From contig WHTX01000018.1 of the NCBI GenBank assembly GCA_009377505.1, forward strand, positions 1 through 32,887: a stretch of DNA of 32,887 bases, in the 5' to 3' direction. This DNA comes from Acidimicrobiia bacterium (GTDB taxonomy: Bacteria; Actinomycetota; Acidimicrobiia; Acidimicrobiales; CAIXPF01). The notes below the pieces were generated by a model that made no database searches, was not told the DNA's origin, and was given only the letters and a program-made list of their open reading frames with translations. This document shows, one piece after another, positions 2,093 through 28,677 of the stretch. How positions within the stretch are numbered: the stretch's first letter is position 1; every line of letters starts with the position of its first letter. Made by a program: the position numbers and the translations under genes.

Positions 2093-2105
2093 GCGCGGCT
2101 GCTCG

Positions 2106-2852: not shown

Positions 2853-2880
2853 CGTCCCCTCGACAGTCTGCATCGTCGGC

Positions 2881-3555: not shown

Positions 3556-3571
3556 CGTTCACTCGCCCCGC

Positions 3572-5394: not shown

Positions 5395-5405
5395 CAGAGC
5401 TCCCT

Positions 5406-6350: not shown

Positions 6351-6380
6351 GTGGGTGCCTCTCCCTCCATGGCCATGTCG

Positions 6381-6395
6381 GCTGGTCCGGCCAGC
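6381..6395 (-). promoter_or_regulatory. Small stem-loop at the pstS stop codon
   Basis: GCTGG, a TCCGG loop and CCAGC form a 5-bp stem whose 5' side on the transcript touches the pstS stop codon. A stem-loop between pstS and pstC could stabilise or partly terminate the message so that more binding protein than permease is made. The stem is short and could be chance in this GC-rich sequence. Confidence 0.3.
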
Positions 6396-7480
6396 TAGCC
6401 CTTGCCCTGCTCCCAGGCGTCGCGGGTCGCCTGGAGATCATCCTCCGCCAGGGCCACGTACCCCACCTCGTCGGCGGCAGCGATGCCGTCGCCGACGTAG
6501 AAGTCGACGTAGGCGCCGACGGCGGGGTTGTCCTCGAGCGCCGTCTTGCTCACGTAGATGTACAGCGAGCGGGACAGCGGGTACTCGCCCCCAGCGATCG
6601 TCACCGGGGTCGGCTCGACGCAGGCGCCGCCCGGCTCCTCGGAGACCTGGAAGGCGGTCAGGCGATCGCCCTGCTCGGCAAAGTAGGCGTAGCCGACCCA
6701 ACCGAAGGAGTTGGCCGTGCCCTCGATGTTCTGGACGATCAGGTTGTCGTCGGCCGACGCGGTGTAGTCCTTCCGCGTGCTCGCCGCCGCGTCCTCGGTG
6801 ATCTTGCCCACCTCGACGCGGGTCTCGCCGACGCCCTCGAGGGCGATCTCGATGAAGCTGTCGTAGGTGCCCGACTCGGCACCCGGGGCGGTCATGGAGA
6901 ACGGCGCGTCGGGAAACTGCGTCGTCGAGCCCAGCTCGGTGGCGACCGGCTGGAACCCGCTCCAGTTGTCGACGCCCTCGGCCTCCGGTCCGGCGATGGC
7001 GTAGAGGTCGGCGAAGCTCATGCACTCGGGCAGGCCCGAGGTCTGCGGGCTCGTCACCACTGCCATGCCGTCGATGGCGACCTCGAGCTCGACGTACTCG
7101 ATCCCCGAGGCCTCGCAGTCCGCGATCTCCTCGTCGCTGATGGCGCGCGACGCATCGGAGATGTCGGTCTCACCTGCGCAGAACAGTTGGAAGCCGTCGC
7201 CGGTACCAGGCCCGTCGACGTTGACGACGACGTCCGGTGCCTCCTCTTCGAACAGCTCGGCGACCCGGATCGAGATGGGCTCGACGGTCGACGAGCCTGA
7301 GATGTTGACCTCGCCGCTGAGGTCGTCGGTCGAGGCGCCGCCTGCGGTCGTCTCGCTGCCACTCGAGGTGGTGGGCTCCGAGCCGGTGTCGTCGCTGTCG
7401 TCCCCACCGCATGCCGCGGCGACGAGAGACAGCAGGAGCAGGCCCGCTAGAGGGCTCCTCCAGCGATTGCTGATCCTCAC
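6395..7480 (-). CDS. pstS: Periplasmic phosphate-binding lipoprotein PstS
   Basis: This is the substrate-binding lipoprotein of the phosphate importer, 361 aa. The N-terminus is a lipoprotein signal (positively charged RISNRWR, hydrophobic LLLLSLVAAA, lipidated Cys24). A Gly/Ser/Thr/Asp-rich tether follows to about residue 50. The mature domain begins with the phosphate-loop motif ISGSSTVEPIS and contains GAESGTYDSF, the second phosphate-contacting segment. The start is GTG at 7480, with AAGGAGG 7 nt upstream, the best ribosome binding site in the operon. It is the first gene of the operon and lies below a PHO box. The length is normal for actinobacterial PstS. Confidence 0.95.
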   Translation of the reverse strand: MRISNRWRSPLAGLLLLSLVAAACGGDDSDDTGSEPTTSSGSETTAGGASTDDLSGEVNISGSSTVEPISIRVAELFEEEAPDVVVNVDGPGTGDGFQLFCAGETDISDASRAISDEEIADCEASGIEYVELEVAIDGMAVVTSPQTSGLPECMSFADLYAIAGPEAEGVDNWSGFQPVATELGSTTQFPDAPFSMTAPGAESGTYDSFIEIALEGVGETRVEVGKITEDAAASTRKDYTASADDNLIVQNIEGTANSFGWVGYAYFAEQGDRLTAFQVSEEPGGACVEPTPVTIAGGEYPLSRSLYIYVSKTALEDNPAVGAYVDFYVGDGIAAADEVGYVALAEDDLQATRDAWEQGKG

Positions 7481-7551
7481 GTGGGTTCCTCCTTGGATGT
7501 CCCGTACCGGCGGCAAGCTAGGTGGGGCCGGTAACGAGTCCCGTCGCCGGA

Positions 7552-7580
7552 GGTGGCGCGGAGGTGAACGAGCGTTGAAC
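7552..7580 (-). promoter_or_regulatory. PHO box upstream of pstS
   Basis: Read on the minus strand there is GTTCAAC (7580-7574), four bases, then GTTCACC (7569-7563), and a weaker third repeat CGCCACC (7558-7552). All are spaced 11 bp apart. Direct repeats of GTTCACC at 11-bp intervals are the known binding site of PhoP/RegX3-type regulators in actinobacteria. The site lies 83-100 bp upstream of the pstS start, on the correct strand, and the cognate regulator is encoded at the end of the same operon. Confidence 0.8.
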
Positions 7581-7643
7581 GTTCGCCCATCTGTCGTCCA
7601 GGTGTGCCCGGGGGCCCACCGGTGTTCATGGTGTGCCCGAGGC

Positions 7644-8822
7644 TCACGCGTCCCGCGGCTCCTTCGGCGGCGCCAGCAGGTCGGCCAGGCGCTCGGCCGG
7701 TGGCGGGTGGTCGCGGGAGAGCGCTCGCCAGCGCGACGGCGCGAGGTCGCTGCCGGCCTGCACCATCACCCGGCGCAGGTGGGCGGCGAGGTGGCGGCCG
7801 TCGCCCAGGAGGCCCACGGCGAAGGCATCGGCGTCGCGCTCGTGGGAGCGGGAGACGGCACACAGGACAAGGTGGCTCACTGCGCCGGCGCCGACGGCGA
7901 GGACCATCCACAGCGGGAGCAGTCGCGGGTCGAGCCGGTCGAAGTCGCCGCCTGCGGCCAGGGTGCGGACGAGGAGGTCGGCCAGGGCCAGGAAGGCCAG
8001 GGCCGCGGCGGCGGCGGCCAGCCAGGCGGTGGTGGCGCGGCGGTGGTGGCCGAGCTTCCAGTGCCCGAGCTCGTGGGCCACCACCACGTCGAGGTCCGCC
8101 GTCGGGCCCCGGACCACGTCGGCGGCGATGACGAGGCGGCGAGCACGGCCGAAGCCTGCGACGTAGGCACCTTCGTCCCCGATGGGCCCGCCCACCGCGG
8201 CGAGGACCGTCGGACAGCCCAGGCCTGCTCGACGGGCGAGCTCACCGATCCTCGCCAGCACCTCGGGGTCATTGACGCGCACGACGCGGTCGACGACGGG
8301 CGCCACCACGAACGGGTAGAGCACCGCCGCCGCCATGGACACGACGGCGAGGACGACGGAGACGACGACGGGCCACCATGGGGTGGCGCGGGCGACCGCG
8401 GAGATGCAGAGCAGCAGGAGCCCGCCGAGCACGAGGCGGACGACGGCCGAGGCGATCGGCCCGACGACGAGGCGGCCGAGCCCGGGCTCACCCGTCCGCT
8501 CCGCCCCCTCGGCGACGCCGTCGGCGAGCAGCCACTGTTCGCGCGCACCGGCGAGGAGGCGGTGCGGCAACGCGGCCGCCTCGAGGGCCACGAAGACGAC
8601 CAGCACCCTGTCGGTCCACAACGCCTGCGGGTAGGGCCGGACGAGGTGCTCGGCGAGCCCCAGGGCGAGGAACAGGACGAGCACGGCGGCGTCGGCCAGC
8701 GCCCGGCACGTGCGTACCTGGGCCAGTGACCGGTGCAACGCGGATGCCTGGGCGAGCTGTGACGCACCGAACCACCGCTCCGGGTCCGCACCCGGCATCC
8801 GCCGCCCCGTCCCGAGGCCCAC
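7644..8822 (-). CDS. M48-family membrane metalloprotease (Ste24/HtpX-like)
   Basis: This is a membrane zinc endopeptidase of 392 aa. The active site is VVAHELGHWKLGHH, with zinc ligands His250 and His254 and catalytic Glu251. The third ligand is Glu328 in SRSHERDADAFAV. Helices lie before the catalytic domain (about 41-60, 73-90, 120-145, 152-178) and after the HELGH motif (265-290, 303-323). This order matches CAAX prenyl protease 1/Ste24 more than the shorter HtpX. The GTG at 8822 has GAGG close upstream; an ATG at 8798 is equally plausible. It is alone between the pst promoter and a gene-free region, so its substrate is unknown; membrane protein quality control is likely. Confidence 0.88.
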   Translation of the reverse strand: MGLGTGRRMPGADPERWFGASQLAQASALHRSLAQVRTCRALADAAVLVLFLALGLAEHLVRPYPQALWTDRVLVVFVALEAAALPHRLLAGAREQWLLADGVAEGAERTGEPGLGRLVVGPIASAVVRLVLGGLLLLCISAVARATPWWPVVVSVVLAVVSMAAAVLYPFVVAPVVDRVVRVNDPEVLARIGELARRAGLGCPTVLAAVGGPIGDEGAYVAGFGRARRLVIAADVVRGPTADLDVVVAHELGHWKLGHHRRATTAWLAAAAAALAFLALADLLVRTLAAGGDFDRLDPRLLPLWMVLAVGAGAVSHLVLCAVSRSHERDADAFAVGLLGDGRHLAAHLRRVMVQAGSDLAPSRWRALSRDHPPPAERLADLLAPPKEPRDA

Positions 8823-9271
8823 CTACCTCAGCCGCCTCGCCGAAGGAGATCGGCCCGGGCGTGCGCCACCACCCAGGCCGACGCCCCCGTGGCGTGCAGA
8901 GCTGGGGAGCAGGGGTGCGCCGCGGCGAGCACGCCCTGATCGTAGGTCCTGGCCGGCGGCGGCGGCGCCGTCAGGCCTCCCGCCGCCTCGCACGAGGACA
9001 CGGGCACCTCGCGGTGTCCTTGGCCGTTGCTCCGGTGACGAAACGGCCGGCGGGCGCGCTGGTCGGGTGGTGTTCCCGGGCGTGCCGGGCTCGCCCGGGG
9101 GGCCGGCCCCGCCCGCGCCCCCGGCATCCCGCCAGGCACGCCGTCCCCCACGGGCATTTCATCACCGGAGCAATACCCAGGACCGGGGGCCCGAGCACGC
9201 GCCCCGCCTCGACGGGCGCTCCACCCGGCCCCAACGAGCTCGAACCGACGAGCAGACCAACTACCGCACGA
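8823..9271. other. Gene-free stretch of 449 bp
   Basis: Open frames here are rich in Arg, Pro and Gly, lack any recognisable domain and look like chance frames in GC-rich DNA. The only clear structure is an inverted repeat at 9027-9173. The M48 protease promoter should lie near the 8823 end, but I could not identify a convincing -10 box. Confidence 0.6.
9027..9173. repeat. 147-bp structure bounded by inverted repeats
   Basis: TTGCTCCGGTGACGAAA at 9027-9043 is matched by the reverse complement of 9157-9173 at 16 of 17 positions. Extending inward to 28 bp gives 23 matches. The 113-bp interior has no coding signal. Such an arrangement is typical of a miniature inverted-repeat element or the ends of a decayed insertion sequence. 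I see no target duplication, so two facing regulatory sites remain an alternative. Confidence 0.5.
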
Positions 9272-9700
9272 TCAGCGGCCGAGGGCGGCGGCGCCGAAGC
9301 GCTCCAGCACCTCCGCGTCAGACGCCCAGGTGAGCAGGGACCGGGCGTCGGCCGGGGTCGCCCAGCGCACCTCGTCGACCTCGTCGTTGGGGACGAAGGC
9401 ACCCCGCTCCACCTGCATCTCCCACCACCGCACCACCTTGGGGCGGCCGCGGTGGTCGGTGTAGCGCACGCTGCCGAGGTCGGCGCCGAGGCGGCAGTCG
9501 AGGCCGGTCTCCTCGGCCACCTCACGTCGCGCCGCCTCCTCGAAGCTCTCCCCCGGGTCGAGCTTGCCCTTGGGGAAGGACCAGTCCTGGCGGCGCGGAC
9601 GGTGGACGAGCAGAACCTCGACGCCCTCCTCGACGGGCCGCCACACCAAGCCCCCGGCGGCCCGCACGAGCGCGCCGGTCGGGCCATTCGCTGCGCTCAT
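9272..9700 (-). CDS. Nudix hydrolase, MutT-like
   Basis: This is a Nudix hydrolase of 142 aa that cleaves a nucleoside diphosphate-X substrate. The full Nudix box (G-x5-E-x7-REUxEExGU) spans residues 45-67: GKLDPGE then REVAEETGL. The surrounding LVHRPRRQDWSFPKGKL resembles the N-terminal domain of mycobacterial MutT1, which is also encoded next to ppk1. The C-terminal histidine-phosphatase domain of MutT1 is absent. The ATG at 9700 lies in the first of three 44-bp tandem repeats. The frame is open back to an ATG at 9775, but those extra 25 residues are only translated repeat. The substrate (8-oxo-dGTP, Ap4A or other) cannot be told. Confidence 0.9.
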   Translation of the reverse strand: MSAANGPTGALVRAAGGLVWRPVEEGVEVLLVHRPRRQDWSFPKGKLDPGESFEEAARREVAEETGLDCRLGADLGSVRYTDHRGRPKVVRWWEMQVERGAFVPNDEVDEVRWATPADARSLLTWASDAEVLERFGAAALGR

Positions 9701-9812
9701 CGGGCTTCCCGCTCCCGGCCGCTCGGGCCATTCGCTGCGCTCATCGGGCTTCCCGCTCCCGGCCGCTCGGGCCATTCGCTGCGCTCATCGGGCTACCCGC
9801 TCCCGGCCGCTC
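9681..9812. repeat. Three tandem copies of a 44-bp unit at the ppk-mutT junction
   Basis: The unit occurs at 9681-9724, 9725-9768 and 9769-9812. The first two copies are identical and the third differs at one base (TTCCC to TACCC). On the minus strand each copy carries an ATG followed by AGCGCAGCG. In the copy at 9769-9812 this ATG overlaps the ppk stop (ATGA), and in the copy at 9681-9724 it is the mutT start. As 44 is not a multiple of three, each copy number puts a different frame between the two genes. Confidence 0.95.
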
Positions 9813-11893
9813 AGCTTGGCCCGCTGGCGGCCGGCGACGAGCTCGTGCAGGCGCACGTGCGCCTCGACGTCGCCGGAGACGCTGGCCCCGTCCTCGCCGA
9901 GCTGCGCCACCCGGGACCACGAGCCGTCGGCGCCGAGCCGCCAGGCCAGGGTGTCGTCGACCAGGTTCACGTCGATGACCTCCCGCAGCCGGGCCTGCAG
10001 GGAGGGCTCGACCACGGGCACGAGCGCCTCGACCCGACGGTCGAGGTTGCGGGGCATCAGGTCGGCCGAGCCGATGTACCAGGCCGATCGCCCCGGGCCG
10101 TCGCCGTTGGCGAAGTGGTAGATGCGGGAGTGCTCCAGGTACCGGCCGACGAGGGACCGCACGCGAATGCGCTCGGACTGGCCCGGCACGCCCGGGACCA
10201 GGCAGCAGATGCCCCGGATGATGAGGTCGATGTCCACGCCCGCCTCGGACGCCTCGTAGAGGGCCTCGATGGTGCTCGGGTCCACGAGGCTGTTCATCTT
10301 GAGCACGATCCGGCCGTCGGGCCCAGCCGCCTGCTCGCCCTCGATGAGGTCGAGGATGCCGCGGCGCAGGGCGTGAGGGGCGACGAGGAGGCGCTGGTAG
10401 CGCGGCTCGTGCCCGAAGCCGGTCAGGTGGTTGAAGAGGTTCGTGACGTCGGCGGCGATCGTCGGGTCGGTCGTGAACAGGCCCAGATCCTCGTAGATGC
10501 GAGCGGTGCGGGAGTCGTAGTTGCCCGTCCCGATGTGGCAGTAGCGGCGCAGGCCGTCGCCGTCGTCGCGCACCACCAGGGTGACCTTGGCGTGGGTCTT
10601 CAGGCCGACCATGCCGTAGACGACGTGCACCCCCGACTGCTCGAGGCGCTTGGCCCAGTCGATGTTGTTCCGCTCGTCGAAGCGGGCCGTGAGCTCCACG
10701 AGCACAGCCACCTGCTTGCCGTCCTCCGCCGCCTGCACCAGCGCATCGATGATCGGGCTGTCGCCCGACGTGCGGTACAGCGTCATCTTGATGGCCAGCA
10801 CCCGAGGGTCGCTGGCCGCCCGGGTGACGAAGGCCTCGACGGAGGAGGTGAAGGACACGTAGGGGTGGTGGACCAGCACGTCGCCGCGGCGAATGCTGGT
10901 GAACACGTCGCCCTCGTCGTCGTCGACCAGCTTGGGCTCGACGCCCGGTGAGAGCACGGCGAACCTGAGGTCGGGCCTATCGAGGTTGACCAGGGCCCAG
11001 AGCGAGCTGAGGTCGAGGGGGGCCGGCGAGCGGTAGACGTCCTCCTCGTCGACCTCGAGCTCCTCCGTGAGCAGGTCGAGCATCTCCTGGGGCATGCCCG
11101 CAGCGACCTCGAGGCGCACCGGGTTCTTGAAGCGCCGGCGGCGCAGCTCCATCTCGAGGGCGGCGAGCAGGTCGTCCGCCTCCTCGTCCTCGAGGGTGAG
11201 GTCGGCGTTGCGGGTGACGCGGAAGGCGTGGGCGCCGACCAGGCCGACGCCAGGGAAGAGCACCTCGAGGTGCCGGGCGATGACCTGCTCGAGGGGGACG
11301 AAGCGCCCACCGTCGGGCAGGGGCATGAACCGGGGCAGGAGGGACGGGACCTTCACCCGGGCGAACCGCTCGGCCTCGTCGCCCTCCACCCAGCCGAACA
11401 CGCCGAGGTTCAGGGCCAGGTTCGAGATGTAGGGGAAGGGGTGGCTCGGGTCGACGCCGAGGGGGGTCAGCACCGGGAAGACCCGGTCGTGGAACTCGGT
11501 CTCGAGCGCCTTGCGGTCGTCCCGGTCGAGGTCCTCCCAGCTCGTGACCTCGATGCCGGCCCGCCCCAGCTCCGGCTGCAGGTCCTCGAGGAAGACCCTG
11601 GTCTGGCGAGCGAGGAGCTCCTCGACCCGGTCGCGGATCTCGAGCAGCTGGACGGCAGGCGAGCGGCCGTCGGGCGAGATGCCGCTGACCTGGCCGGCGA
11701 CGAGGTCCTTGAGCCCTGCCACGCGGACCATGAAGAACTCGTCGAGGTTCGTCGAGAAGATGGCGCAGAACTTCAGGCGCTCGAGGAGCGGGAGCCTGCG
11801 GTCCTCGGCCAGGGCGAGGACTCGGGCGTTGAAGTCGAGCCAGGAGAGCTCACGGTTGAGGATCCGTAGCGGAGGGCGCCCAGCGGCCAGCAC
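9785..11893 (-). CDS. ppk: Polyphosphate kinase PPK1
   Basis: This enzyme reversibly transfers the gamma-phosphate of ATP to inorganic polyphosphate. It has 702 aa, the normal PPK1 length. The N-terminal domain starts LNRELSWLDFNARVL and continues FSTNLDEFFMVRVAG. The phosphorylated His is His453 in YCHIGTGNYDSRTARIY, the second conserved His is His593 in IYHFANGD, and the metal-binding Arg lies in YRTSGDSPII. The C-terminus (GRERVAR) comes from the 44-bp repeat, so it has been altered by the repeat. The start is GTG at 11893, with no ribosome binding site but a TACCAT box 6 nt upstream. Storage of phosphate as polyphosphate fits the Pst operon nearby. Confidence 0.96.
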   Translation of the reverse strand: MLAAGRPPLRILNRELSWLDFNARVLALAEDRRLPLLERLKFCAIFSTNLDEFFMVRVAGLKDLVAGQVSGISPDGRSPAVQLLEIRDRVEELLARQTRVFLEDLQPELGRAGIEVTSWEDLDRDDRKALETEFHDRVFPVLTPLGVDPSHPFPYISNLALNLGVFGWVEGDEAERFARVKVPSLLPRFMPLPDGGRFVPLEQVIARHLEVLFPGVGLVGAHAFRVTRNADLTLEDEEADDLLAALEMELRRRRFKNPVRLEVAAGMPQEMLDLLTEELEVDEEDVYRSPAPLDLSSLWALVNLDRPDLRFAVLSPGVEPKLVDDDEGDVFTSIRRGDVLVHHPYVSFTSSVEAFVTRAASDPRVLAIKMTLYRTSGDSPIIDALVQAAEDGKQVAVLVELTARFDERNNIDWAKRLEQSGVHVVYGMVGLKTHAKVTLVVRDDGDGLRRYCHIGTGNYDSRTARIYEDLGLFTTDPTIAADVTNLFNHLTGFGHEPRYQRLLVAPHALRRGILDLIEGEQAAGPDGRIVLKMNSLVDPSTIEALYEASEAGVDIDLIIRGICCLVPGVPGQSERIRVRSLVGRYLEHSRIYHFANGDGPGRSAWYIGSADLMPRNLDRRVEALVPVVEPSLQARLREVIDVNLVDDTLAWRLGADGSWSRVAQLGEDGASVSGDVEAHVRLHELVAGRQRAKLSGRERVAR

Positions 11894-12432: not shown

Positions 12433-12464
12433 GGCGCGGCGGACCGGTGGGAACGGAGGCCCGC

Positions 12465-12713
12465 ATGGCGAACCAGTGGATGGCGCAGGGGAACTGCGCT
12501 GAACGGCCACCCTCGTTGTTCTTCCCGAGCGACGGGGTCGGCGTCGAGGTGGCGAAGCGTGTCTGCGCTTCGTGCCCCGTCAGACAGGAGTGCCTCGAGT
12601 ACGCCCTTCGCAACCGCATCGACCACGGCGTGTGGGGCGGCACGTCGGAGCGTGAGCGCCGGCGGATCCTCAAGCGCCGTCGCCTCCTCCACGAGGAGGC
12701 TGGCCTGGTCTGA
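12465..12713 (+). CDS. WhiB-family iron-sulfur transcriptional regulator
   Basis: This is a WhiB-like protein of 82 aa. The four cysteines that hold a redox/NO-sensitive [4Fe-4S] cluster are Cys11, Cys34, Cys37 and Cys43. The G(V/I)WGG turn is at residues 55-59 (GVWGG), followed by a basic DNA-binding tail (SERERRRILKRRRLL). The ATG at 12465 has GGAGG 5 nt upstream, so it is preferred over the GTG at 12447. WhiB proteins act with the principal sigma factor and are nearly confined to actinobacteria and their phages. It faces tatA across a strong hairpin. I cannot assign a WhiB subclass. Confidence 0.93.
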   Translation: MANQWMAQGNCAERPPSLFFPSDGVGVEVAKRVCASCPVRQECLEYALRNRIDHGVWGGTSERERRRILKRRRLLHEEAGLV

Positions 12714-13021: not shown

Positions 13022-13312
13022 TCAGGCCGACCGAGGATTCCGGGTGAGCTGGGCGATCGCCGCCAAGGCCCGCTCCCGCCGGATGCGCCGGCGCTCACGC
13101 TCGGACAGGCCGCCCCAGATGCCGAACTTCTCCCCATGGCGGATGGCGAACTCCAGGCACTGCTCGCGCACGACGCACCCGCGGCAGACCTCCTTGGCCT
13201 CACGGGTGGACGCGCCCCGCTCGGGGAAGAAGAGGTCCGGGTCGACCCCGAGGCAGTTCGAGTACTCCTGCCAGGCCAAGTCTTCGGCGGGATCGTTGAT
13301 GGGGATTCGCAT
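13022..13312 (-). CDS. WhiB-family regulator, second copy
   Basis: This is a WhiB-like protein of 96 aa. The cluster ligands are Cys20, Cys43, Cys46 and Cys52. The GIWGG turn is at 64-68, followed by LSERERRRIRRERALA. The ATG has GGAAGG 7 nt upstream. It is diverged from the WhiB at 12465 (different spacing before Cys1 and a longer C-terminus), so the two are unlikely to be recent duplicates. It lies 44 bp before tatA on the same strand. A long region (13313-13578) separates it from the divergent macro-domain gene and holds an AT-rich palindrome. Confidence 0.93.
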   Translation of the reverse strand: MRIPINDPAEDLAWQEYSNCLGVDPDLFFPERGASTREAKEVCRGCVVREQCLEFAIRHGEKFGIWGGLSERERRRIRRERALAAIAQLTRNPRSA

Positions 13313-15884: not shown

Positions 15885-17906
15885 TCAGGCGCGGGCGCGA
15901 CCGCCGATGAGCCGGCGCTTCTGGTCGATGAAGTCGACGAGCACGTAGTCACCGAGCGTCTCGGGCGTGGTGAAGAAGGCCCGGCCCCGGTTCATCTCGG
16001 CCACCTTCTCGATGAACTGCTTCAGGTAGCTGGTGGCGTCGAGCATGAACGTGTTGATCACGATCCCGTCCCGGGTGCACCGCGACACCTCGCGCAGCGT
16101 CCGGCGGATCGTCTCCTGCTCGGGCGGGTAGGCGAAGTAGGGCGTGCCGTCGTCCTCGATGTGGGCGGTGGGCTCGCCGTCGGTGATCATGATGATCTGC
16201 TTCGTGCCGCTCTGGCGACCGAGGAGCTGGCGGGAGATGGCCAGCCCGTGCTGCATGTTCGTGCCGTACACGTAGTCCCAGGAGACCTCGGGCAACTCGG
16301 TGGCGCTGAACTCGCGAGCCACGGAGGAGAAGCCCACCAGGCCCAGGTAGTCACGCGGGTACTGCGAGGAGATCAGCGCGTGCAGCGCCATCGCCACCTT
16401 CTTGGCGGGCAGGAAGTTGTCCCGCATCGGCATGGAGAGCGACAGGTCGAGCATCAGCACCGTCGACTGGCGGACCAGGTGCTCGGTGCGCTCCACCTCG
16501 AAGTCCTCGGGGGTCAGCTGTACCGGCGTGCCCGTGCCCGAGCGGCGGACGGCGTTGCGCACGGTCTGCTGGATGTCGAGGTTGAAGGGGTCGCCCCACT
16601 CGTACTGCTTGGTCGAGTACTCGCGCTCGTGGCCCCAGCCCGCCTTCTCGAGCGCGTGGCGGCCCACCTGGTCCATCTTCAGCTTCTTGAAGAGGTCGGT
16701 GAGGGCGTTCTGGCCGATCTGGCGGATGCCCCGGGGGGTGAGCTCGAGGCGGCCGTCCGACTTGCGGTCGATGAGGCCGGCGTCCTCGAGCATGCGGGCG
16801 AACTGGGCCATGCGCTCGAGGGACTGGGCCGCCTCCTCGCCGAGGAGGTCGCGAGCGCGGTCGATGTCGACCTCGGCGAGGGCGCCGGGGTTCGTCGCCC
16901 CGCGCAGCAGGTTCTCGAGCTGGTCGAGGTCGCCGAGCTCCTGCATGAGCTGGGAGGCCTCGGCGAAGTTGAGCGGGTCCTGGCCGTTGAAGTTGTACTG
17001 GCGGTCCCAGCCCATGTCGGGGAACGCCTGGCGCAGGTTCTCGCCGAGCTGGTCCATCTGCCAGCGCAGGTCCATGTCCTCGAGCAGCTGCTCGGACAGG
17101 CCCTGGAGCTGCGCCCGCTGCTCGGGCGTCATCGAGTTCATCATCGCCTGCATGGCAGCCATGCGCTGGGCCATGATCTCGAGCAGCTCGTCGAGGTTCT
17201 CGGGGCCTTCGGGGAAGAAGTCCCCGTAGCGCTGCATGAACTCCTCGAAGCCCTGCTGGGTGTCCTCGCCCCGGTTCTTCTGGTCGAGCAGGTTGTTCAG
17301 CTCGGCCAGCATGTCCTTCATGCGCTGCATCTGCTCGGGGCTGACGTTCTCCATCGCCCCGGCCATCTGGTTCACGTAGGACTGCATGAGCTGTTGGCGG
17401 AGCTTGTCGACGAGCTGCTCGAACTGCTGCTGCGCTTCCTGGGAGACGAAGTCGTAGCTCTGGAGCTCCTTCACCTGGCCGGCGAGATCGGGGGGCAGCA
17501 TGTCGAGTTGGAAGTTCCGCTCGGCCATGGCCTGCTCGGTGACCTCGTGCTGGCGCTCGTCGCCTGACGCCCCGGTCTCGTCGAGGCGGTCCTCGATGGC
17601 CTCGCGCTCGGTCTCCACCACGTCGCGGAGCTCCTGGGCGATGTCGTCGTAGACTCCGCCCAGGTCGTAGCGCTCGAGCTGGTCACGGCGCTTGCGCCGC
17701 AGGTTCTCGAGCATCTCCCGCATGCCCTGCATGCGGTCCCCGTCGGGGGTGCGGAAGCCGGACTGCATCATCCGGCGCAGGGCCGCGTTCAGGTCGCCGT
17801 GGTAGAGCAGGTCGTCGGTGATCTCGCCGAGCACCTCCTCGGCGGTCAGCTCGAACCCGGACTGCGTACCGTCCCAGCGGGAGTACAAGAACCGAGAGCG
17901 CCCCAT
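15885..17906 (-). CDS. VWA-domain protein with long Gln/Met-rich helical region (MoxR partner)
   Basis: This is a soluble protein of 673 aa. Residues 1-430 are mostly helical and rich in Gln, Met, Glu and Leu, with coiled-coil-like stretches. The C-terminal VWA domain (about 480-673) has an intact metal site: DLSLS (Asp487, Ser489, Ser491), a Thr near 549 and ITDGEP with Asp576. It is encoded without its own ATPase, but the MoxR/chelatase-type AAA+ at 23446-24852 is the usual partner. By analogy with CbbQO, RavA-ViaA and magnesium chelatase I-D, the pair probably remodels or inserts metal into a target. The ATG at 17906 has TAGCCT 7 nt upstream and no ribosome binding site. Confidence 0.88.
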   Translation of the reverse strand: MGRSRFLYSRWDGTQSGFELTAEEVLGEITDDLLYHGDLNAALRRMMQSGFRTPDGDRMQGMREMLENLRRKRRDQLERYDLGGVYDDIAQELRDVVETEREAIEDRLDETGASGDERQHEVTEQAMAERNFQLDMLPPDLAGQVKELQSYDFVSQEAQQQFEQLVDKLRQQLMQSYVNQMAGAMENVSPEQMQRMKDMLAELNNLLDQKNRGEDTQQGFEEFMQRYGDFFPEGPENLDELLEIMAQRMAAMQAMMNSMTPEQRAQLQGLSEQLLEDMDLRWQMDQLGENLRQAFPDMGWDRQYNFNGQDPLNFAEASQLMQELGDLDQLENLLRGATNPGALAEVDIDRARDLLGEEAAQSLERMAQFARMLEDAGLIDRKSDGRLELTPRGIRQIGQNALTDLFKKLKMDQVGRHALEKAGWGHEREYSTKQYEWGDPFNLDIQQTVRNAVRRSGTGTPVQLTPEDFEVERTEHLVRQSTVLMLDLSLSMPMRDNFLPAKKVAMALHALISSQYPRDYLGLVGFSSVAREFSATELPEVSWDYVYGTNMQHGLAISRQLLGRQSGTKQIIMITDGEPTAHIEDDGTPYFAYPPEQETIRRTLREVSRCTRDGIVINTFMLDATSYLKQFIEKVAEMNRGRAFFTTPETLGDYVLVDFIDQKRRLIGGRARA

Positions 17907-17913
17907 GGGTTTG

Positions 17914-17919
17914 AGGCTA
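17914..17919 (-). promoter_or_regulatory. Putative -10 box of the VWA gene (leaderless)
   Basis: TAGCCT on the minus strand ends 7 nt before the ATG at 17906. The divergent DUF445 promoter lies about 90 bp away. Confidence 0.55.
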
Positions 17920-18007
17920 GTGGTCGAGGCCGGGGCTGTCCCGACGTCGGGCAACCAGGGCTGGTGGCGGCGGGCGTCGCGCTGCCGTCCAGAGGCCGGG
18001 CCAGCTC

Positions 18008-18013
18008 TATCGT
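18008..18013 (+). promoter_or_regulatory. Putative -10 box of the DUF445 gene (leaderless)
   Basis: TATCGT ends 8 nt before the GTG at 18022. The same hexamer and spacing occur before the Fpg/Nei gene. Confidence 0.55.
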
Positions 18014-18021
18014 GGGCGGCC

Positions 18022-19293
18022 GTGCCCGATGCCGCCGCCCCCCTCCCCTCCCTCGGGGACGAGGAGGGGCGACGGCGCCAGCTGCGACAGATGAAGGCAC
18101 GGGCCACTGGCCTGCTTCTCCTCGCCGCCGGCGTGTTCGTGGCCGCCCGCCTCTTCGAGGAGGACCACGGCTGGTTGGGCTACGTGCGGGCCACGGCGGA
18201 GGCGGCCATGGTGGGCGGGCTGGCCGACTGGTTCGCGGTGACGGCGCTCTTCCGCCACCCCCTGCGCATCCCCATCCCCCACACGGCCATCATCCCCACC
18301 CGCAAGGACCAGCTCGGCCACAGCCTGGGCAGCTTCGTGGAGGACAACTTCCTGGCCGGGCCGGTGATCGCCGAGAAGCTGCGCTCGGCGCAGGTGGCCA
18401 ACCGGGTAGCGGCCTGGTTGCTGGCGCCGGGCAACGCCACGGTCGCCGCCCGCCACACGAGCGCAGCGCTGGCGGGGGCGGCGGAGGTGCTGAGAGACGA
18501 GGACGTGCAGTCAGCCATCGAGTCGGGCCTCATCGGCCGGCTCCGCAAGGTCCAGGCCGCCCCGCTCGCCGGCAAGGTGCTCGAGATCGCCACGGCGGAG
18601 GGGCGCCACACCGAGATGGTCGACGCCACCCTCGCCGCCTCGATCCGCTTCATCGACGAGAAGCGGGAGTCCCTGCGCAGCCGGTTCGGGCGCGAGTCGC
18701 CGTGGTGGGTGCCCGAGCCCATCGACAGCCGCATCTTCGAGAAGCTCTACGGCGGCCTCCGCTCCTTCCTCACCGAGGTGGCGGGGGACCCCGAGCACGA
18801 GTTCCGCCGCTACCTCGACGAGCGGGCGGCCGAGCTCGCCCAGCGCCTCCAGCACGACCCCGAGCTCATCGCCCGGGGCGAGCTGTGGAAGGAGGAGCTG
18901 CTGCGCCACCCTGCCGTGGCCAGCTGGTCGGCGTCGCTGTGGTCCGACCTCAAGGCCACTTTGCAGAAGCAGGCCGAGGACCCCGCCTCCGAGCTGCGCC
19001 GGCGCATCGAGCAGGCGGCGGCGACGCTCGGGAGGAGCCTGCGGGACGATCCCGAGCTGCAGGCCAAGGTGGACGGGTGGATCGAGTCGACCGTGCTCTA
19101 CGTGGTCGAGCAGGAACGCCACCAGCTCGCCGAGCTGATCTCGGGGACGGTCGCCCGCTGGGACCCCGACGAGGCGTCCGAGCGGATCGAGCTGCAGGTC
19201 GGCCGGGACCTCCAGTTCATCCGCATCAACGGCACCCTGGTCGGTGGGCTCGCCGGCCTCGGCATCCACGCCATCGGCCAGCTCATCGGGTAG
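18022..19293 (+). CDS. DUF445-family membrane protein
   Basis: This is a DUF445 protein of 423 aa (the YjiN/YheB-related family, function unknown). The N-terminal helix (ATGLLLLAAGVFVAARL) is followed by the family's conserved AEAAMVGGLADWFAVTALFRHP and a helix-rich middle with FEKLYGGLRSFL. A C-terminal hydrophobic end, INGTLVGGLAGLGIHAIGQ, probably re-enters the membrane. The GTG at 18022 is chosen over upstream starts because of the TATCGT box 8 nt before it; the frame upstream reads into the VWA promoter. It is the first of three plus-strand genes that each have their own promoter. Confidence 0.88.
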   Translation: MPDAAAPLPSLGDEEGRRRQLRQMKARATGLLLLAAGVFVAARLFEEDHGWLGYVRATAEAAMVGGLADWFAVTALFRHPLRIPIPHTAIIPTRKDQLGHSLGSFVEDNFLAGPVIAEKLRSAQVANRVAAWLLAPGNATVAARHTSAALAGAAEVLRDEDVQSAIESGLIGRLRKVQAAPLAGKVLEIATAEGRHTEMVDATLAASIRFIDEKRESLRSRFGRESPWWVPEPIDSRIFEKLYGGLRSFLTEVAGDPEHEFRRYLDERAAELAQRLQHDPELIARGELWKEELLRHPAVASWSASLWSDLKATLQKQAEDPASELRRRIEQAAATLGRSLRDDPELQAKVDGWIESTVLYVVEQERHQLAELISGTVARWDPDEASERIELQVGRDLQFIRINGTLVGGLAGLGIHAIGQLIG

Positions 19294-19392
19294 TGAACGC
19301 GACCGAGGCCCTGCCCGTGGCCCGCTCGGCCCGGGGCTCCTGGGGCCTGCCGGGTGCACCTGGTGCCGGTCACCGGGACAAGGCGCACCCGG

Positions 19393-19398
19393 TAACGT
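19393..19398 (+). promoter_or_regulatory. Putative -10 box of the GH1-like gene (leaderless)
   Basis: TAACGT ends 7 nt before the GTG at 19406, exactly as upstream of the macro-domain gene. Confidence 0.6.
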
Positions 19399-19405
19399 CC
19401 CCGGC

Positions 19406-20593
19406 GTGGCGCTTCCCGAGGACTTCTGGTGGGGTGTCGCCTTCGCCTCCGTGCAGGCCGAGGGCGCGGCGCCGGAGAGCGACTGGCGCGACTGGGAGCG
19501 CCAGGGCCGGGCGCCGTACTCGGGCGAGGGCGGCGGCTTCGGCACCTCCTACCGCGACGACCTGCGGCTCTTCGCCGCCCACAACCTCCGCCACGTGCGC
19601 CTCACCCTCGAGTGGAGCCGGCTCGAGCCGACCAACGGCAACGTCGACCCGTGGGCGGTCGAGCACTACCGCAGGGTCCTCGCCGCCGCGGCCGACGCCG
19701 GGCTCGCCGTCTGGGCGACGCTCGTCGACCGGACGCTGCCCGGTTGGTTCGGGCTCGACGAGCGGGGCTTCCGCGACCAGCGGGCCCGCTCCTACTACTG
19801 GCCCCGCCATGTCGAGCGCTGCGCCGAGGCGTTCGGCGCTGACGTCCACGCCTGGGTGCCCATCGCCCGCCCCCTGCGGCTGGCTCGAGCCGGCTACCTG
19901 GTGGGTAGCGCGCCACCGGGCCGTACCGACCCCCGTCGCTTCGGCGAGGCCCTGGTCGGGGCGCACCAGGCCGGGCTCGAGGCCTGGCGGGTGCTACGAG
20001 GCGGGCCGCCCGTCGCCACCTGCTACGACGTGGCCGACGTGCGGCCGGCGGAGGCCGGGCTGACCGAGCGCCGGGCGGCGGCGCAGGTCGACCGGAGCCA
20101 TTGGGGCTGGACCACAGCCTTCCGCGACGGCCTTCTCGAGCTGGGCGGGGGCCCCCAGGTGCAGGTGCCGCTCCAGCGCGAGGCGTTCGACCTCGTCGGG
20201 CTCACCATCGAGGACCGGGTGCGGGTCGACGCCGAGGGACGTTGGACGTCGGCGCACGTGCCCGAGGACGTCGCCGCCCTGGTGCGCCGGGTCGCCGAGG
20301 AGGGCCCCGAACGCCCCGTCGTGGTGCTCGGCCAGCACATCGCGAGCCCCGACGAGCTCGGCGGGGTGGCCGATGAGCTGGACGGCGCCGTCGCCGACGG
20401 GGTGCCCCTGCACGGGTGGTTCGCCGAGCCGGCCATCGACGGCTACGAGGGCGCCCTGGGCGCCACCGAGCGCGGCCTGTTCACCTCGGACCGCCAGGCC
20501 CGGCCCCAGGCCGAGCTGCTCGCCGAGCTCGCCGGGCGCAGCCGCCCTCCGGATGACTTCTCGAACGCCGTCCTCCTCGGCGGACCGGGCTGA
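19406..20593 (+). CDS. Glycoside hydrolase family 1-like protein lacking both catalytic glutamates
   Basis: This is a protein of 395 aa with the GH1 (beta-glucosidase) barrel layout. The N-terminus LPEDFWWGVAFASVQAEG matches the GH1 start FLWGxATSxxQxEG, and YRDDLRLFAAHNLRHVRLTLEWSR matches the first barrel strands. Where GH1 enzymes have W-x-T-x-N-E-P with the acid/base Glu, this protein has WVPIARP (150-156), putting Ala154 and Arg155 in place of Asn-Glu. Where they have V-T-E-N-G-I-A with the nucleophile, it has VLGQHIA (307-313), putting Gly309 in place of Glu. The HW of strand 3 is also lost (TLVDRTLPGWF). It is probably not a hydrolase; it may bind sugar or serve another role. It is shorter than typical GH1 (about 440-480 aa). 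A strong TAACGT promoter and intact frame argue against a pseudogene. Confidence 0.82.
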   Translation: MALPEDFWWGVAFASVQAEGAAPESDWRDWERQGRAPYSGEGGGFGTSYRDDLRLFAAHNLRHVRLTLEWSRLEPTNGNVDPWAVEHYRRVLAAAADAGLAVWATLVDRTLPGWFGLDERGFRDQRARSYYWPRHVERCAEAFGADVHAWVPIARPLRLARAGYLVGSAPPGRTDPRRFGEALVGAHQAGLEAWRVLRGGPPVATCYDVADVRPAEAGLTERRAAAQVDRSHWGWTTAFRDGLLELGGGPQVQVPLQREAFDLVGLTIEDRVRVDAEGRWTSAHVPEDVAALVRRVAEEGPERPVVVLGQHIASPDELGGVADELDGAVADGVPLHGWFAEPAIDGYEGALGATERGLFTSDRQARPQAELLAELAGRSRPPDDFSNAVLLGGPG

Positions 20594-20889
20594 CGGCCCA
20601 GGGTCGTGAGCGGAGGGACGGCCTCGGGCGGCAGGGGCGGGGCGCGCGCGACGACGCGGTGGGGGTGTGCACCGCAGTGCCGTTCGGGATCACCAGCGGG
20701 CGGGCGGGGACGAGCGGTCTGGATCTGGACCACCGCGAAGGTTTGTGCACCGTGGCGGTGCAGGATCCTTCGCGGTTCCGTGGCGGGGCCAGCGGGGCAC
20801 GGCCGCCCGAGCGGCAGAAGCCGGGCCGGTCCTGCGCGCCCGGGCCGGTCCTGCGCCCCCGGGCGGGGCGGCGTGGCAAGCTGCGGGCC
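20594..20889. other. 296-bp intergenic region with a palindromic repeat
   Basis: No gene is supported here. It contains the 43-bp double palindrome at 20733-20775 and, at 20877-20882, CAAGCT. That hexamer occupies the usual -10 position 7 nt before the GTG at 20890 but matches TANNNT imperfectly. An earlier in-frame GTG at 20659 would translate the palindrome and is unlikely. Confidence 0.6.
20733..20775 (-). repeat. Dispersed 43-bp double palindrome, copy A
   Basis: The outer arms CCGCGAAGG and CCTTCGCGG pair perfectly (9 bp). The inner arms TGCACCG and CGGTGCA pair perfectly (7 bp) over a TGG loop. Its reverse complement matches 30139-30181 at 39 of 43 positions, so the two copies lie in opposite orientation. 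It behaves like a REP-type intergenic repeat and could also act as a terminator for the upstream gene. Confidence 0.85.
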
Positions 20890-21756
20890 GTGTTCGAGGG
20901 CTTCAGCAGCGAGACGGTCGACGTGGGCGAGGTCGCCATCCACGTGCGCCGGGCCGGCACCGGCCCCGCGGTGGTGCTGGTGCACGGCTATCCCGAGCAC
21001 CACCTCTGCTGGCACAGGGTGGCCCCGGCCCTGGCCGAGCGGTTCACGGTCTTGTGCCCTGACCTACGGGGGTACGGGTGGTCGGCCAAGCCGGCCGGGG
21101 CCGACTACTCGAAGCGGGCCATGGCCGGCGACCTCGTCGGGCTGCTCGATCGCCTGGACATCGGGCGGGCCGCCATCATCGGCCACGACCGCGGGGCCCG
21201 GGTCGCCTACCGGGCCGCGCTCGACCACCCCGACCGGGTGAAGCGGTTGGCCGTGCTCGACATCGTGCCCACGGTCGAGCAGTGGGAGCAGCTCGACTGG
21301 CGGCGCAGCCTCGGGAGCTGGCACTGGTACTTCCTGGCCCAGCCCGAGCCCATCCCCGAACGACTGATCGCTGCCGACCCCGGCTGGCTGTGCCGGCTCC
21401 TCATCGAGCGCTGGGCCCGCGACCCCGCCACCATCGACGCCGAGGCCATGGCCAGCTACGTCGAGGTGTTCGGGGACCCGGGCACGGTCCACGCCTCATG
21501 CCAGGACTACCGGGCCGGGGCCACCGTCGACTGGGACCTCGACGAGGCCGACCGGGCCGCCGGCCGGCGGATCACCTGCCCCACCCTGGCCCTGTGGGGC
21601 GACCGCGGGGTGCGGGGCAACGCAACCATGGCCGACACCTGGTCGCGCTGGGCGACCGACCTGCGCAGCGCCCCGATCGACTGCGGCCACTTCCTCGCCG
21701 AGGAGGCGCCGGAGGCGACCCTCGCCGAGCTCGTCCCCTTCCTCGAGGGCCGCTGA
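20890..21756 (+). CDS. Haloacetate dehalogenase-like alpha/beta hydrolase
   Basis: This is an alpha/beta hydrolase of 288 aa that closely follows the fluoroacetate dehalogenase pattern. The oxyanion region is VHGYPEHHLCW. The nucleophile elbow is IIGHDRGARV, with Asp100 and the carboxylate-binding Arg101 and Arg104. The halide pocket residues known from RPA1163 are all present: His145 and Trp146 in SWHWYFL, and Tyr207 in CQDYRAGAT. The catalytic His267 is in DCGHFLAEEAPE. LDIVPT and ADPGW also match the family. It probably cleaves the carbon-halogen bond of haloacetates to give glycolate; an epoxide hydrolase is the main alternative. The GTG at 20890 marks the conserved N-terminus. No transporter or regulator is adjacent. 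Confidence 0.85.
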   Translation: MFEGFSSETVDVGEVAIHVRRAGTGPAVVLVHGYPEHHLCWHRVAPALAERFTVLCPDLRGYGWSAKPAGADYSKRAMAGDLVGLLDRLDIGRAAIIGHDRGARVAYRAALDHPDRVKRLAVLDIVPTVEQWEQLDWRRSLGSWHWYFLAQPEPIPERLIAADPGWLCRLLIERWARDPATIDAEAMASYVEVFGDPGTVHASCQDYRAGATVDWDLDEADRAAGRRITCPTLALWGDRGVRGNATMADTWSRWATDLRSAPIDCGHFLAEEAPEATLAELVPFLEGR

Positions 21757-23445: not shown

Positions 23446-24852
23446 TCAGGCCCGCGAGCGGTAGCTCGCCTTGGTGCCCGCGGCGTCCTTGTTGAGGCGC
23501 TTGGACAAGTGCAGGCCCTCGAGCAGGAACTCGACGGCCGAGGCGACCATGGCCGGGGACTCGTCGCCCTCGGTGAGGGCTTGGACGGGGCCCCGCAGGT
23601 CCTCGACCTGGGAGACCGTGCGCACGAAGGTGGTGGAGGGCACGTCTTCGCCAGCGTCGACCACGAGCCCGGAGTCGAACGTCTCGACGATGCCCCTGAA
23701 GGTCTCCCCCGACACCCGGCTCTTGAACACGGTGAGCACGGCGCCGCGCAGCAGCTGGTCGATGATCTGGCCGTCGCGGCCCTCCTCGAGGGTCTCGATC
23801 TCGACCTTGCCCGCCGTCGAGGAGACGAGAGCGTCGAGGTCGCTGACCCGGGGCACGACCTCGTCCTCGCCGTGGCCCAGGGCCCGGCGCGCCGCGTTGG
23901 CCACGAGGGTCTCGTGGTTGGAGACCGAGAGGCGCACCGAGACGCCGGAGCGCTGGTTGATGTTGCCGCTCGCCCGGGCCAGGTGGGTGATCGTGGCGAT
24001 GATCTCGTCCATGAACTTCGGCACCCGCACGGAGATGCCCTCGGCGACGAAGGGGGTCGCCTCCTGGGCCACGATCGCCATCTCGATGTCGGTCGTGGGC
24101 GGGTAGTGCGTGCGGATCTGGGCGCCGAAACGGTCCTTGAGCGGGGTGATCAGGCGGCCGCGGTTCGTGTAGTCCTCGGGGTTGGCGGAGGCCACGAGCA
24201 GGACGTCGAGCGGCAGGCGGACCTTGTACCCCCGCACCTGCACGTCGCGCTCCTCGAGCACGTTCAAGAGGCCCACCTGGATGCGCTCGGCGAGGTCGGG
24301 CAGCTCGTTCATGGCGAAGATGCCCCGGTTCGTGCGGGGCACGAGCCCGTAGTGCAGCGTCAGCTCGTCGGAGAGGTACCGCCCCTCGGCCACCTTGATG
24401 GGGTCGACCTCACCGATGAGGTCAGCGACGGAGGTGTCGGGCGTGGCCAGCTTCTCGCCGAAGCGGTCGGCACGGTGCACCCAGTCGATCCGCGTGTCCT
24501 CCCCGTGGGCGGCGATGAGGTCCTTGGCGTACCTCGAGATCGGCGCGTAGGGGTCGTCGTTGATCTCGGACCCGGCGATGACCGGCATCCATTCGTCGAG
24601 GAGGTCCACGAGGCGTCGGATGAGGCGGGTCTTCGCCTGGCCCCGCTCCCCCAGGAAGACGATGTCGTGGCCGGCGAGCAGGGCGTTCTCCACCTGGGGG
24701 ATGACCGTGTCCTCGAAGCCGAGGACGTCGGGGAACAGCTCCCTGCCCTCCTTGATGCTCTGGAGGGCATTGCGCCTCAGCTCTTCCTTGACCGTCCGCG
24801 AGACCCAACCGGACTCACAGAGCTGACCCAGCGTGGCGGGGCGGGAGGACAT
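23446..24852 (-). CDS. MoxR/magnesium-chelatase-type AAA+ ATPase
   Basis: This is an AAA+ ATPase of 468 aa related to ChlI/BchI and MoxR. Walker A is GERGQAKT (68-75), with Ala73 where GxxGxGK has Gly. Walker B is GIFAMNELPDL, with Asn where Asp is usual. Sensor 1 is LLVASANPEDYTNRGRL, and PLKDRFGAQIRTHYP carries the arginine finger region. As I know the family, the atypical Walker residues are shared by this clade and do not by themselves imply inactivity. The C-terminal lid reaches about residue 350, followed by an extra helical region. The likely partner is the VWA protein at 15885-17906, 5.5 kb away. The ATG has TACCGT 7 nt upstream and no ribosome binding site. Confidence 0.88.
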   Translation of the reverse strand: MSSRPATLGQLCESGWVSRTVKEELRRNALQSIKEGRELFPDVLGFEDTVIPQVENALLAGHDIVFLGERGQAKTRLIRRLVDLLDEWMPVIAGSEINDDPYAPISRYAKDLIAAHGEDTRIDWVHRADRFGEKLATPDTSVADLIGEVDPIKVAEGRYLSDELTLHYGLVPRTNRGIFAMNELPDLAERIQVGLLNVLEERDVQVRGYKVRLPLDVLLVASANPEDYTNRGRLITPLKDRFGAQIRTHYPPTTDIEMAIVAQEATPFVAEGISVRVPKFMDEIIATITHLARASGNINQRSGVSVRLSVSNHETLVANAARRALGHGEDEVVPRVSDLDALVSSTAGKVEIETLEEGRDGQIIDQLLRGAVLTVFKSRVSGETFRGIVETFDSGLVVDAGEDVPSTTFVRTVSQVEDLRGPVQALTEGDESPAMVASAVEFLLEGLHLSKRLNKDAAGTKASYRSRA

Positions 24853-24859
24853 GCGGCCC

Positions 24860-24865
24860 ACGGTA
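24860..24865 (-). promoter_or_regulatory. Putative -10 box of the MoxR-type gene (leaderless)
   Basis: TACCGT on the minus strand ends 7 nt before the ATG at 24852. The VWA partner gene has the same arrangement (TAGCCT, 7 nt). Confidence 0.6.
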
Positions 24866-24995
24866 GTGCGGGCACACCAGCTGCGCGCCGCACGCAGCGC
24901 CCGCCCCGGGCGCGCCCACGCGCCCCGCGCCTCCGTCCCAGGTCGCAGCACGTGGGACGGGCTGGGCTGGTTCGCCTCGAGCGCATCGGGCCGGG

Positions 24996-25001
24996 TAGCG
25001 T
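24996..25001 (+). promoter_or_regulatory. Possible -10 box of the sdhCAB operon
   Basis: TAGCGT fits TANNNT and would give an sdhC leader of about 75 nt. No clear -35 box accompanies it. Confidence 0.35.
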
Positions 25002-25083
25002 CCCCTTCGCCCCGGCACCCGCGCCGGGACAGCACGCCAGGCTTCAGAGCGAGCTTCCAGAGCGATCCGTACGGGGGTCCGCG

Positions 25084-25893
25084 GTGGCGACGACGACACC
25101 GGCCCAACCACGCCAGACGAACAAGCCGATCTTCCCCCAGCGCAAGCGCCTGCCGTTCCCGCTGGGGCTCTACCAGTCCGCGATCGGCAAGAAGTGGGTG
25201 ATGGGCATCACCGGGATCATGCTCATGGGCTACGTGCTCGTGCACATGATCGGGAACCTGCACATCTACGAAGGGCCCGGGCAGATCAACGAGTACGGCG
25301 AGGCCCTACGCGACCTCGGCGGCCACCTGGCGCCCCGCACGTTCGTGCTCTGGGTGCTGCGCATCGGGCTGGCGGGGGCCTTCGTGCTCCACATCCACGC
25401 CGCCTACTCGCTGACCCGCCTGAACCACAAGGCCCGGCCCTCCAAGTACGCCGGGGGCCGCACGTACCACGCCGCCAACTTCGCCTCGCGGTCGATGCGC
25501 TGGACCGGCGTCATCGTCCTGCTCTACCTCTTCTTCCACCTCGCTGACCTGACCTGGGGCTGGTGGCTGGGCGACGACTACATCCGTGGCGACGTCTACA
25601 ACAACGTGGTCCGCAGCCTCAGCTCGGTGCCCATCGCCCTCATCTACGTCGTCGCCAACGTGGCCCTGGCGGTGCACCTGTACCACGGCGCCTGGAGCAT
25701 GTTCCAGAGCCTCGGGCTCAACAACCCCCGGTTCAACGGCATGCGGCGCGGCTTCGCCACGTCGTTCGCCGCCATCATCCTGATCGGCAACCTGTCCTTC
25801 CCGATCTTGGCCGTCAGCGGCCTCGTCAGCCAGGACAACCGCACGCACGAGTGCCACGACGGCACAGAGGCGTGCCTCGGGACGAACAACTGA
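25084..25893 (+). CDS. sdhC: Succinate dehydrogenase cytochrome b subunit (SdhC, b558 type)
   Basis: This is the membrane anchor of succinate:quinone oxidoreductase, 269 aa. It has five predicted helices (about 38-58, 87-109, 140-160, 180-202 and 224-248), the single-subunit class-B arrangement seen in Wolinella, Bacteroides and many actinobacteria. Candidate heme ligands are His54 (LVHMIGNLH), His103 or His105 (VLHIHAAYS), His152 (FFHLADL) and His201 (LYHGAWSMF), consistent with two b hemes and menaquinone chemistry. After the last helix a tail of about 20 residues holds Cys257 and Cys264 ([10 protein letters not shown]), which is unusual. The start is GTG at 25084, with a GGGGG stretch 6 nt upstream. 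SdhA follows after 20 bp. Confidence 0.93.
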
Positions 25894-25913
25894 CCGCAGA
25901 AGAGGAGCGACGG

Positions 25914-27842
<1,929 letters not shown>

Positions 27843-27891
27843 CCGCTGGGCGACAGGTGGAGGCCGGGCGAGGAGTGAGGACCGAGACGAC

Positions 27892-28677
27892 GTGAGCGGC
27901 ACCAACGCGAAGCCCATCCGGATCACGCTCAAGGTCTGGCGCCAGACCGGGCCCGGCGCGCCCGGCGGGTTCGAGACCCACGAGGTGGCCGAGGTCTCGC
28001 CCGACATGTCCTTCCTCGAGCTGCTCGACGACGTGAACGAGCGCCTGATCGCCGAGGACCGCCTGCCCATCACCTTCGACCACGACTGCCGAGAGGGCAT
28101 CTGTGGGAGCTGCGGGATGATGATCAACGGCAAGCCGCACGGCCCCGAGCTCGCCACCGCGACCTGCCAGCTGCACATGCGCAAGTTCAAGGACGGCGAC
28201 ACCGTCGTGGTGGAGCCGTTCCGCGCCGCGGCCTTCCCCCTCATCCGCGACCTCGCCGTCGACCGGGGCTCCATGGACCGGATCATCGAGGCGGGCGGCT
28301 ACATCTCGGCGGACACCGGCTCGGCCCAGGACGCCAACATCGTCCCCATCCCCAAGCCCGTGGCCGACGGCGCCATGGACGCCGCCGCCTGCATCGGCTG
28401 TGGGGCCTGCGTGGCCGCCTGCCCGAACTCCGCCGCCCAGCTCTTCACCTCGGCCAAGCTGTCCCACCTCAACCTGCTGCCCCAGGGCCAGGCCGAGCGC
28501 TGGGCGCGCACCGAGGCGATGGTGGAGACGATGGAGTCCTTCTTCGGCTCCTGCACGAACCACGGCGAGTGCGAGGCGGCCTGCCCCAAGTCGATCTCCA
28601 TCGACTTCATCGCCTTCATGAACCGTGACTACGTGAACGCGAAACGGAAGAACCGCCAGCTGCTCTCCCAGGGCTGA
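27892..28677 (+). CDS. sdhB: Succinate dehydrogenase iron-sulfur subunit SdhB
   Basis: This is the electron-transfer subunit of complex II, 261 aa. The [2Fe-2S] ligands are Cys66, Cys71, Cys74 and Cys92 ([12 protein letters not shown] through TATCQ). The next cluster uses [12 protein letters not shown] (Cys167, 170, 173, 177), and the third uses Cys221, Cys227 and Cys231 ([15 protein letters not shown]). It carries electrons from the SdhA flavin to the SdhC quinone site. The GTG at 27892 has a weak GAGGA too far upstream (11 nt); 49 bp separate it from sdhA. The frame and length are normal. Confidence 0.96.

Follow-up and report, generated by a model that had tools for sequence, protein, structure and literature searches.

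An open reading frame in the 32,887-nt stretch of Acidimicrobiia DNA analyzed here (the window) encodes a protein that belongs by homology to GH1, among the largest and best-studied glycosidase families, and that has lost both catalytic glutamates of that family along with most of the surrounding pocket. It is very probable that this GH1-like protein now serves a new function other than cleavage. Our preferred reading, to which we give a probability of roughly 0.65, is that it is a non-hydrolytic binding protein whose pocket, judging from alignments, was rebuilt in a clade-specific manner. Coordinates of the gene, its altered codons, and its neighbors are collected in Table 1.

Table 1. Features of the GH1-like locus, in window coordinates
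Feature	Position	Strand	Basis or remark
VWA-domain protein (conserved core 15888-17882), MIDAS-like DLSLS, divergent neighbor	15885..18107	-	Pfam PF13519; conserved neighbor
DUF445 protein between VWA and GH1-like genes, close relatives only	17818..19293	+	Pfam PF04286, E = 1e-117
TAACGT, candidate -10 element (leaderless transcription)	19393..19398	+	7 nt upstream of GTG; not a sigma-70 consensus match
GH1-like pseudoenzyme, 395 aa	19406..20593	+	GTG start, in agreement with orthologue starts
D108 codon, GH1 catalytic-pocket His position	19727..19729	+	alignment
R155 codon, GH1 acid/base Glu position	19868..19870	+	alignment; after beta-4 in model
E269 codon; Tyr there in every aligned catalytically complete relative	20210..20212	+	alignment
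G309 codon, GH1 nucleophile Glu position	20330..20332	+	alignment; beta-7 in model
E341 codon, in place of pocket Trp	20426..20428	+	alignment
MoxR-type AAA+ ATPase, convergent neighbor	23446..25263	-	conserved position
sdhA-sdhB, beyond MoxR, conserved in many loci	25563..28677	+	

The first-pass annotation of this DNA had described an intact frame of 395 codons, and that description holds: the frame runs open from GTG to TGA, and its product is the only GH1 in this genome. The same annotation ranked the promoter among the clearest in the window, a claim that survives only in part. A scan of positions 17700 to 21000 for sigma-70 consensus promoters and for terminators found neither; however, a TANNNT box recurs 6-7 nt 5' of the start in five close relatives (L035-L039), and this element would fit a leaderless actinobacterial transcript.

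Membership in GH1 by descent is evident from profile, sequence, and model comparisons. The protein matches Pfam PF00232 (Glyco_hydro_1; E = 9.8e-21, 74.1 bits against a curated cutoff of 22.6), TIGR03356 (E = 2.1e-24), and, among PDB sequences, the Pyrococcus horikoshii GH1 1vff (E = 6.4e-21), while its alignment with Streptomyces griseus SGR_2426 (PDB 8kap/9u98) spans nearly the whole protein. AlphaFold, supplied with 29 aligned sequences, predicted a full GH1 TIM barrel of eight strands with high confidence (pLDDT 93.3, pTM 0.92); this predicted (beta/alpha)8 barrel superposes on GH1 structures, and its top PDB match in Foldseek was the GH1 glycosidase 1vff (TMq 0.87). The window protein thus shares with the GH1 beta-glucosidases its fold, near full-length alignment, and motif order, but differs from them in the replacement of both catalytic Glu residues, the adjacent Asn, and the pocket His, Tyr, and Trp.

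In the alignment, WVPIARP (residues 150-156) stands where GH1 has WxTxNEP, with A154 for Asn and R155 for the acid/base Glu, and VLGQHIA (307-313) stands where GH1 has VTENGIA, with G309 for the nucleophile Glu. The model places R155 immediately after beta-4 (149-153) and G309 within beta-7 (305-310), the canonical GH1 locations of the NEP and ENG glutamates, and neither position is occupied by another Glu or Asp. The strand-3 His-Trp/Phe is replaced by D108-R109, and further pocket changes comprise Trp to E341, Asn to G346, Trp to G349, and Tyr to E269, leaving Q17 and E348 as the sole survivors of the usual -1 sugar site. The earlier statements that both catalytic Glu residues, the neighboring Asn, and the strand-3 His-Trp had been lost are therefore borne out. 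Because both carboxylates are gone, as are most residues that hold the -1 sugar, the GH1 double-displacement reaction appears impossible, and it is highly likely, as judged from the alignment, that the protein is not a GH1 glycosidase. With most of the -1 subsite lost, the protein is likewise unlikely to bind glucose there in the canonical way.

To place these replacements in context, we compared 28 nucleophile-less pseudoenzyme representatives with 23 complete relatives. None of the 28 retains the nucleophile Glu, the Asn preceding the acid/base Glu, the pocket Tyr (269), the pocket Trp (341), the aromatic residue after the pocket His (109), or the Asn of DNFEW (346), a loss of the catalytic motif relative to active homologues. 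The barrel scaffold residues and a family-specific LPGWF...WPRHV stretch are kept in the pseudoenzymes, and LPGWF, W132-R134-H135-V136, D52, W70, and D345 are conserved in both sets. Throughout the large pseudoenzyme clade, the nucleophile position is Gly, Ala, or Ser, and the acid/base position varies by sub-clade: Arg in clade A (the window clade), Asp in clades B and D, and Glu beside an Arg in clade C. Clade C (L013, L062, L064, L066, L068, L069, L071, and L074) retains its acid/base Glu within an REP motif that is conserved in most members and has an AGDLA-like sequence at the nucleophile site; this is a distinct type of pocket, perhaps with a function of its own.

Orthologues at 36-47% identity were retrieved by genome search from the same family and order, and a class sample added further Acidimicrobiia families that carry the GH1-like gene. 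A scan of genome contigs yielded 41 loci, most labeled as Acidimicrobiia or Actinomycetota metagenome-assembled genomes. Three contigs titled Bifidobacterium breve (L040, L052, and L063) bear the syntenic Acidimicrobiia locus, and their titles look wrong. At E<=1e-65, a phylum-wide sample of 296 genomes gave matches in Acidimicrobiia and none in other classes, and the loci from the contig scan likewise look like Acidimicrobiia. In several families, the same locus encodes complete versions that resemble the window protein in their LPGWF...WPRHV stretch and in sequence (~40-46% identity for L007, L042, and L126-L135) but keep NEP and a nucleophile Glu in an AE/CE motif (L007, L042, L043, L086, L091, L124, and L126-L135). 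When the catalytic columns were left out of tree building, the order-level pseudoenzymes were monophyletic, with support of 99/98 in the first tree and 92/96 after the addition of L137. A second loss, L076 (QPLHHPT, LITGLGI), is nested inside the complete group, where the tree forces two changes. These phylogenies indicate that the pseudoenzymes comprise one large clade plus at least one further, independent loss, and that the window gene goes back to a GH1 subfamily of Acidimicrobiia that is syntenic and catalytically complete. The genome with the independent loss (G060) encodes both the syntenic copy lacking both Glu residues (L076, 6183-7583) and a non-syntenic paralogue with both intact (L077, 6199-7407), a natural pair for comparing a dead copy with a complete one.

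In one family, f7, the GH1-like gene is short and divergent, or absent. The short copies, whose frames are open, encode 287-367 aa and lie at this locus or close to it (L078, 5957-7060; L081, 3942-5009; L082, 5577-6614; L083, 5914-6777). We considered whether 180-aa frames at this spot in f7 were shrunken GH1 remnants and rejected the idea, given their cyclase-like DLSGFT sequence and a GH1 profile match at noise level. An open reading frame of ~182 aa resembling nucleotide cyclases (FVFxDLSGFT) adjoins the VWA gene in this family (L117, 2740-3288; L118, 7579-8130; L120, 7599-8147; also L078, L081, and L082), and in some f7 genomes it stands in place of the GH1-like gene.

Retention of the gene was assessed on orthologue pairs. 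Frames are open in 41 of the 41 loci from the contig scan, two of which run off contig ends, and this exceeds chance. For pseudoenzyme pairs more than 85% identical, Nei-Gojobori dN/dS mostly falls at 0.02-0.1 and peaks at about 0.19, giving an overall 0.02-0.2 for close pairs that is indicative of purifying selection; the window copy itself, whose nearest relative is ~45% identical, lies outside this estimate. Among the window's nearest relatives, dN/dS is 0.11-0.14, compared with 0.09-0.14 for the flanking DUF445 gene, 0.04-0.07 for MoxR, and 0.02-0.04 for VWA in the same genome pairs. The GH1-like gene is therefore under constraint, yet its rate of evolution exceeds that of the chaperone genes beside it. 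The first-pass annotation had proposed a retained pseudoenzyme and not a decaying gene, and that proposal is now supported by the predicted structure and its match to 1vff, the conservation of the loss substitutions among collected orthologues, the trees, the low dN/dS, and the class-wide synteny.

The old active site also shows signs of renewed constraint. Conservation at the former -1 site exceeds that of other non-helix columns in clade B (0.84 versus a mean of 0.60, p = 0.004) and in clade C (0.72 versus 0.46, p = 0.001); in the four sequences of the window clade, the difference is suggestive but not significant (0.62 versus 0.50, p = 0.15), and clade D has no excess conservation there (p = 0.81). 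The window clade carries a charged set of pocket residues: R155, E/D269, E341, D/E108, G309, and Q/H310. In most sub-clades, positions 155 and 269 bear opposite charges, the sign switching from one to another: R/E in the window clade, D/R in clade B, E/R in clade C, D/R in L008, E/R in L137, and H/E in the independent loss L076. The pattern fails in L010, L012, L044, L014, and L072/L073, and clade D holds exceptions. A 155-269 ion pair may thus have replaced the catalytic dyad, and the alignments indicate that sub-clades fixed new pocket residues after the nucleophile was lost.

Several other explanations would account for parts of these data. That the protein is still a canonical GH1 glycosidase, misaligned at first reading, is scarcely credible: although Q17 and E348 of the sugar site persist, alignment and predicted strand positions agree on Arg155 and Gly309. 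It is also very improbable that the gene is in slow decay and persists by chance alone. Its branches are longer than those of complete relatives and f7 has only shortened copies or none, but frames are intact throughout, the gene is kept across many families, clades B and C show renewed conservation of the pocket, and the low dN/dS over deep divergence largely refutes decay. A novel enzymatic activity in the old pocket, built on relocated carboxylates (D108, E269, E341, and E348), would suit the window clade, where positions 108 and 269 are acidic in 6/6 sequences and E341 and R155 are present in 6/6, and there are known pseudoenzymes whose catalytic residues have relocated (PMC10211241). The acids differ among sister clades, however, with clade C lacking both E269 and E341, so the clades share no new dyad. 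This option is distinctly unlikely.

A further alternative looks to the neighborhood, namely that the GH1-like protein joins the adjacent MoxR AAA+/VWA chaperone pair as a third component, whether client or adaptor, and would present the VWA MIDAS with an acidic surface. In 49/49 loci that show all three genes, a set that may include near-duplicates, VWA and MoxR flank the GH1-like gene, which is often <200 nt from the divergent VWA gene. The window thereby recalls the RavA-ViaA and NorQ-NorD systems, having a MoxR-type/VWA pair near sdhAB; NorQ-NorD reportedly acts with NO reductase, and to our knowledge neither system has a GH1-like component. RavA-ViaA of Escherichia coli associates with fumarate reductase (PMC10585395), and sdhAB is often next in our loci; the MIDAS of NorD binds acidic residues on the target protein (PMC9976466). 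Against this, the GH1-like gene is antisense to both neighbors every time and hence outside their operon, a difference from the known systems, as is its nonobligatory presence. The VWA gene occurs in 16/24 class members tested, mostly genomes without a GH1-like match, and MoxR and VWA adjoin each other without the GH1-like gene in L116, L119, and L121-L123; an obligatory partnership was accordingly rejected. Because ppk, tatA, whiB, and sdhAB are also conserved nearby, the whole region is slow to rearrange, and synteny alone is modest evidence of a functional link. On balance, a role as chaperone component, which would be a special case of the binding reading, seems rather unlikely.

Other neighbors were also considered as functional partners and rejected: DUF445 is restricted to the close family, and an alpha/beta hydrolase gene is not conserved. 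The VWA/MoxR-type AAA+ pair beside sdhAB is conserved in Acidimicrobiia, and the association of RavA-ViaA with fumarate reductase suggests, as an idea open to testing, that the pair may help complex II to mature. Elsewhere in the window, the minus strand from 851 to 11893 holds a phosphate cluster comprising genes for a PhoR-like kinase, two PhoU-like proteins, the Pst transporter, a NUDIX protein, and ppk, all named from reading their translations. Two closely spaced WhiB-like genes on opposite strands (12447-12713 and 13022-13312) flank a TatA-like gene.

The closest functional parallel is found in animals. The Klotho KL1 and KL2 domains are known GH1 pseudoglycosidases (PMC10628560, PMC7828330), barrels that have lost catalytic Glu and are used for partner binding, and the recruitment logic matches that proposed for the window protein. 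Klotho, however, consists of tandem animal receptor domains, whereas the window protein is bacterial and single-domain, and its subsite losses go much further; its one 395-aa barrel begins at strand 1 and leaves no room for a signal peptide, unlike a tandem secreted or membrane receptor. A pseudoglycosidase as such is a known kind of protein; for a bacterial GH1 pseudoenzyme, we found no precedent in the literature searched, whose limited coverage is not proof of absence. The boldest form of the parallel would be a bacterial Klotho counterpart: at a single fixed locus, catalysis would have been lost two or more times from a GH1 barrel that now assists, or is handled by, an actinobacterial MoxR/VWA chaperone as its adaptor or client, the chaperone maturing succinate dehydrogenase or another complex. 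We consider this a long shot.

In the binding-protein reading that we prefer, a soluble GH1-fold (beta/alpha)8 barrel incapable of the double-displacement reaction would have been kept by purifying selection after catalysis was lost, and its old active site would have been remade as a clade-specific charged pocket. Through this pocket face, the barrel would recognize a ligand or partner protein and act as a sensor, carrier, or adaptor and not as a hydrolase. We infer both the lack of hydrolysis and the binding role, which could take the form of scaffolding or of binding another ligand. Counting against this reading, the gene is dispensable in some lineages, as the short, divergent, or missing f7 copies illustrate.

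For genome annotation, a PF00232 match in Acidimicrobiia that carry this family is no evidence of a beta-glucosidase. Complete and dead versions of one gene occupy one locus across a bacterial class, and sister clades have rebuilt the pocket differently; the transition from enzyme to binding protein would therefore be directly testable in this family.
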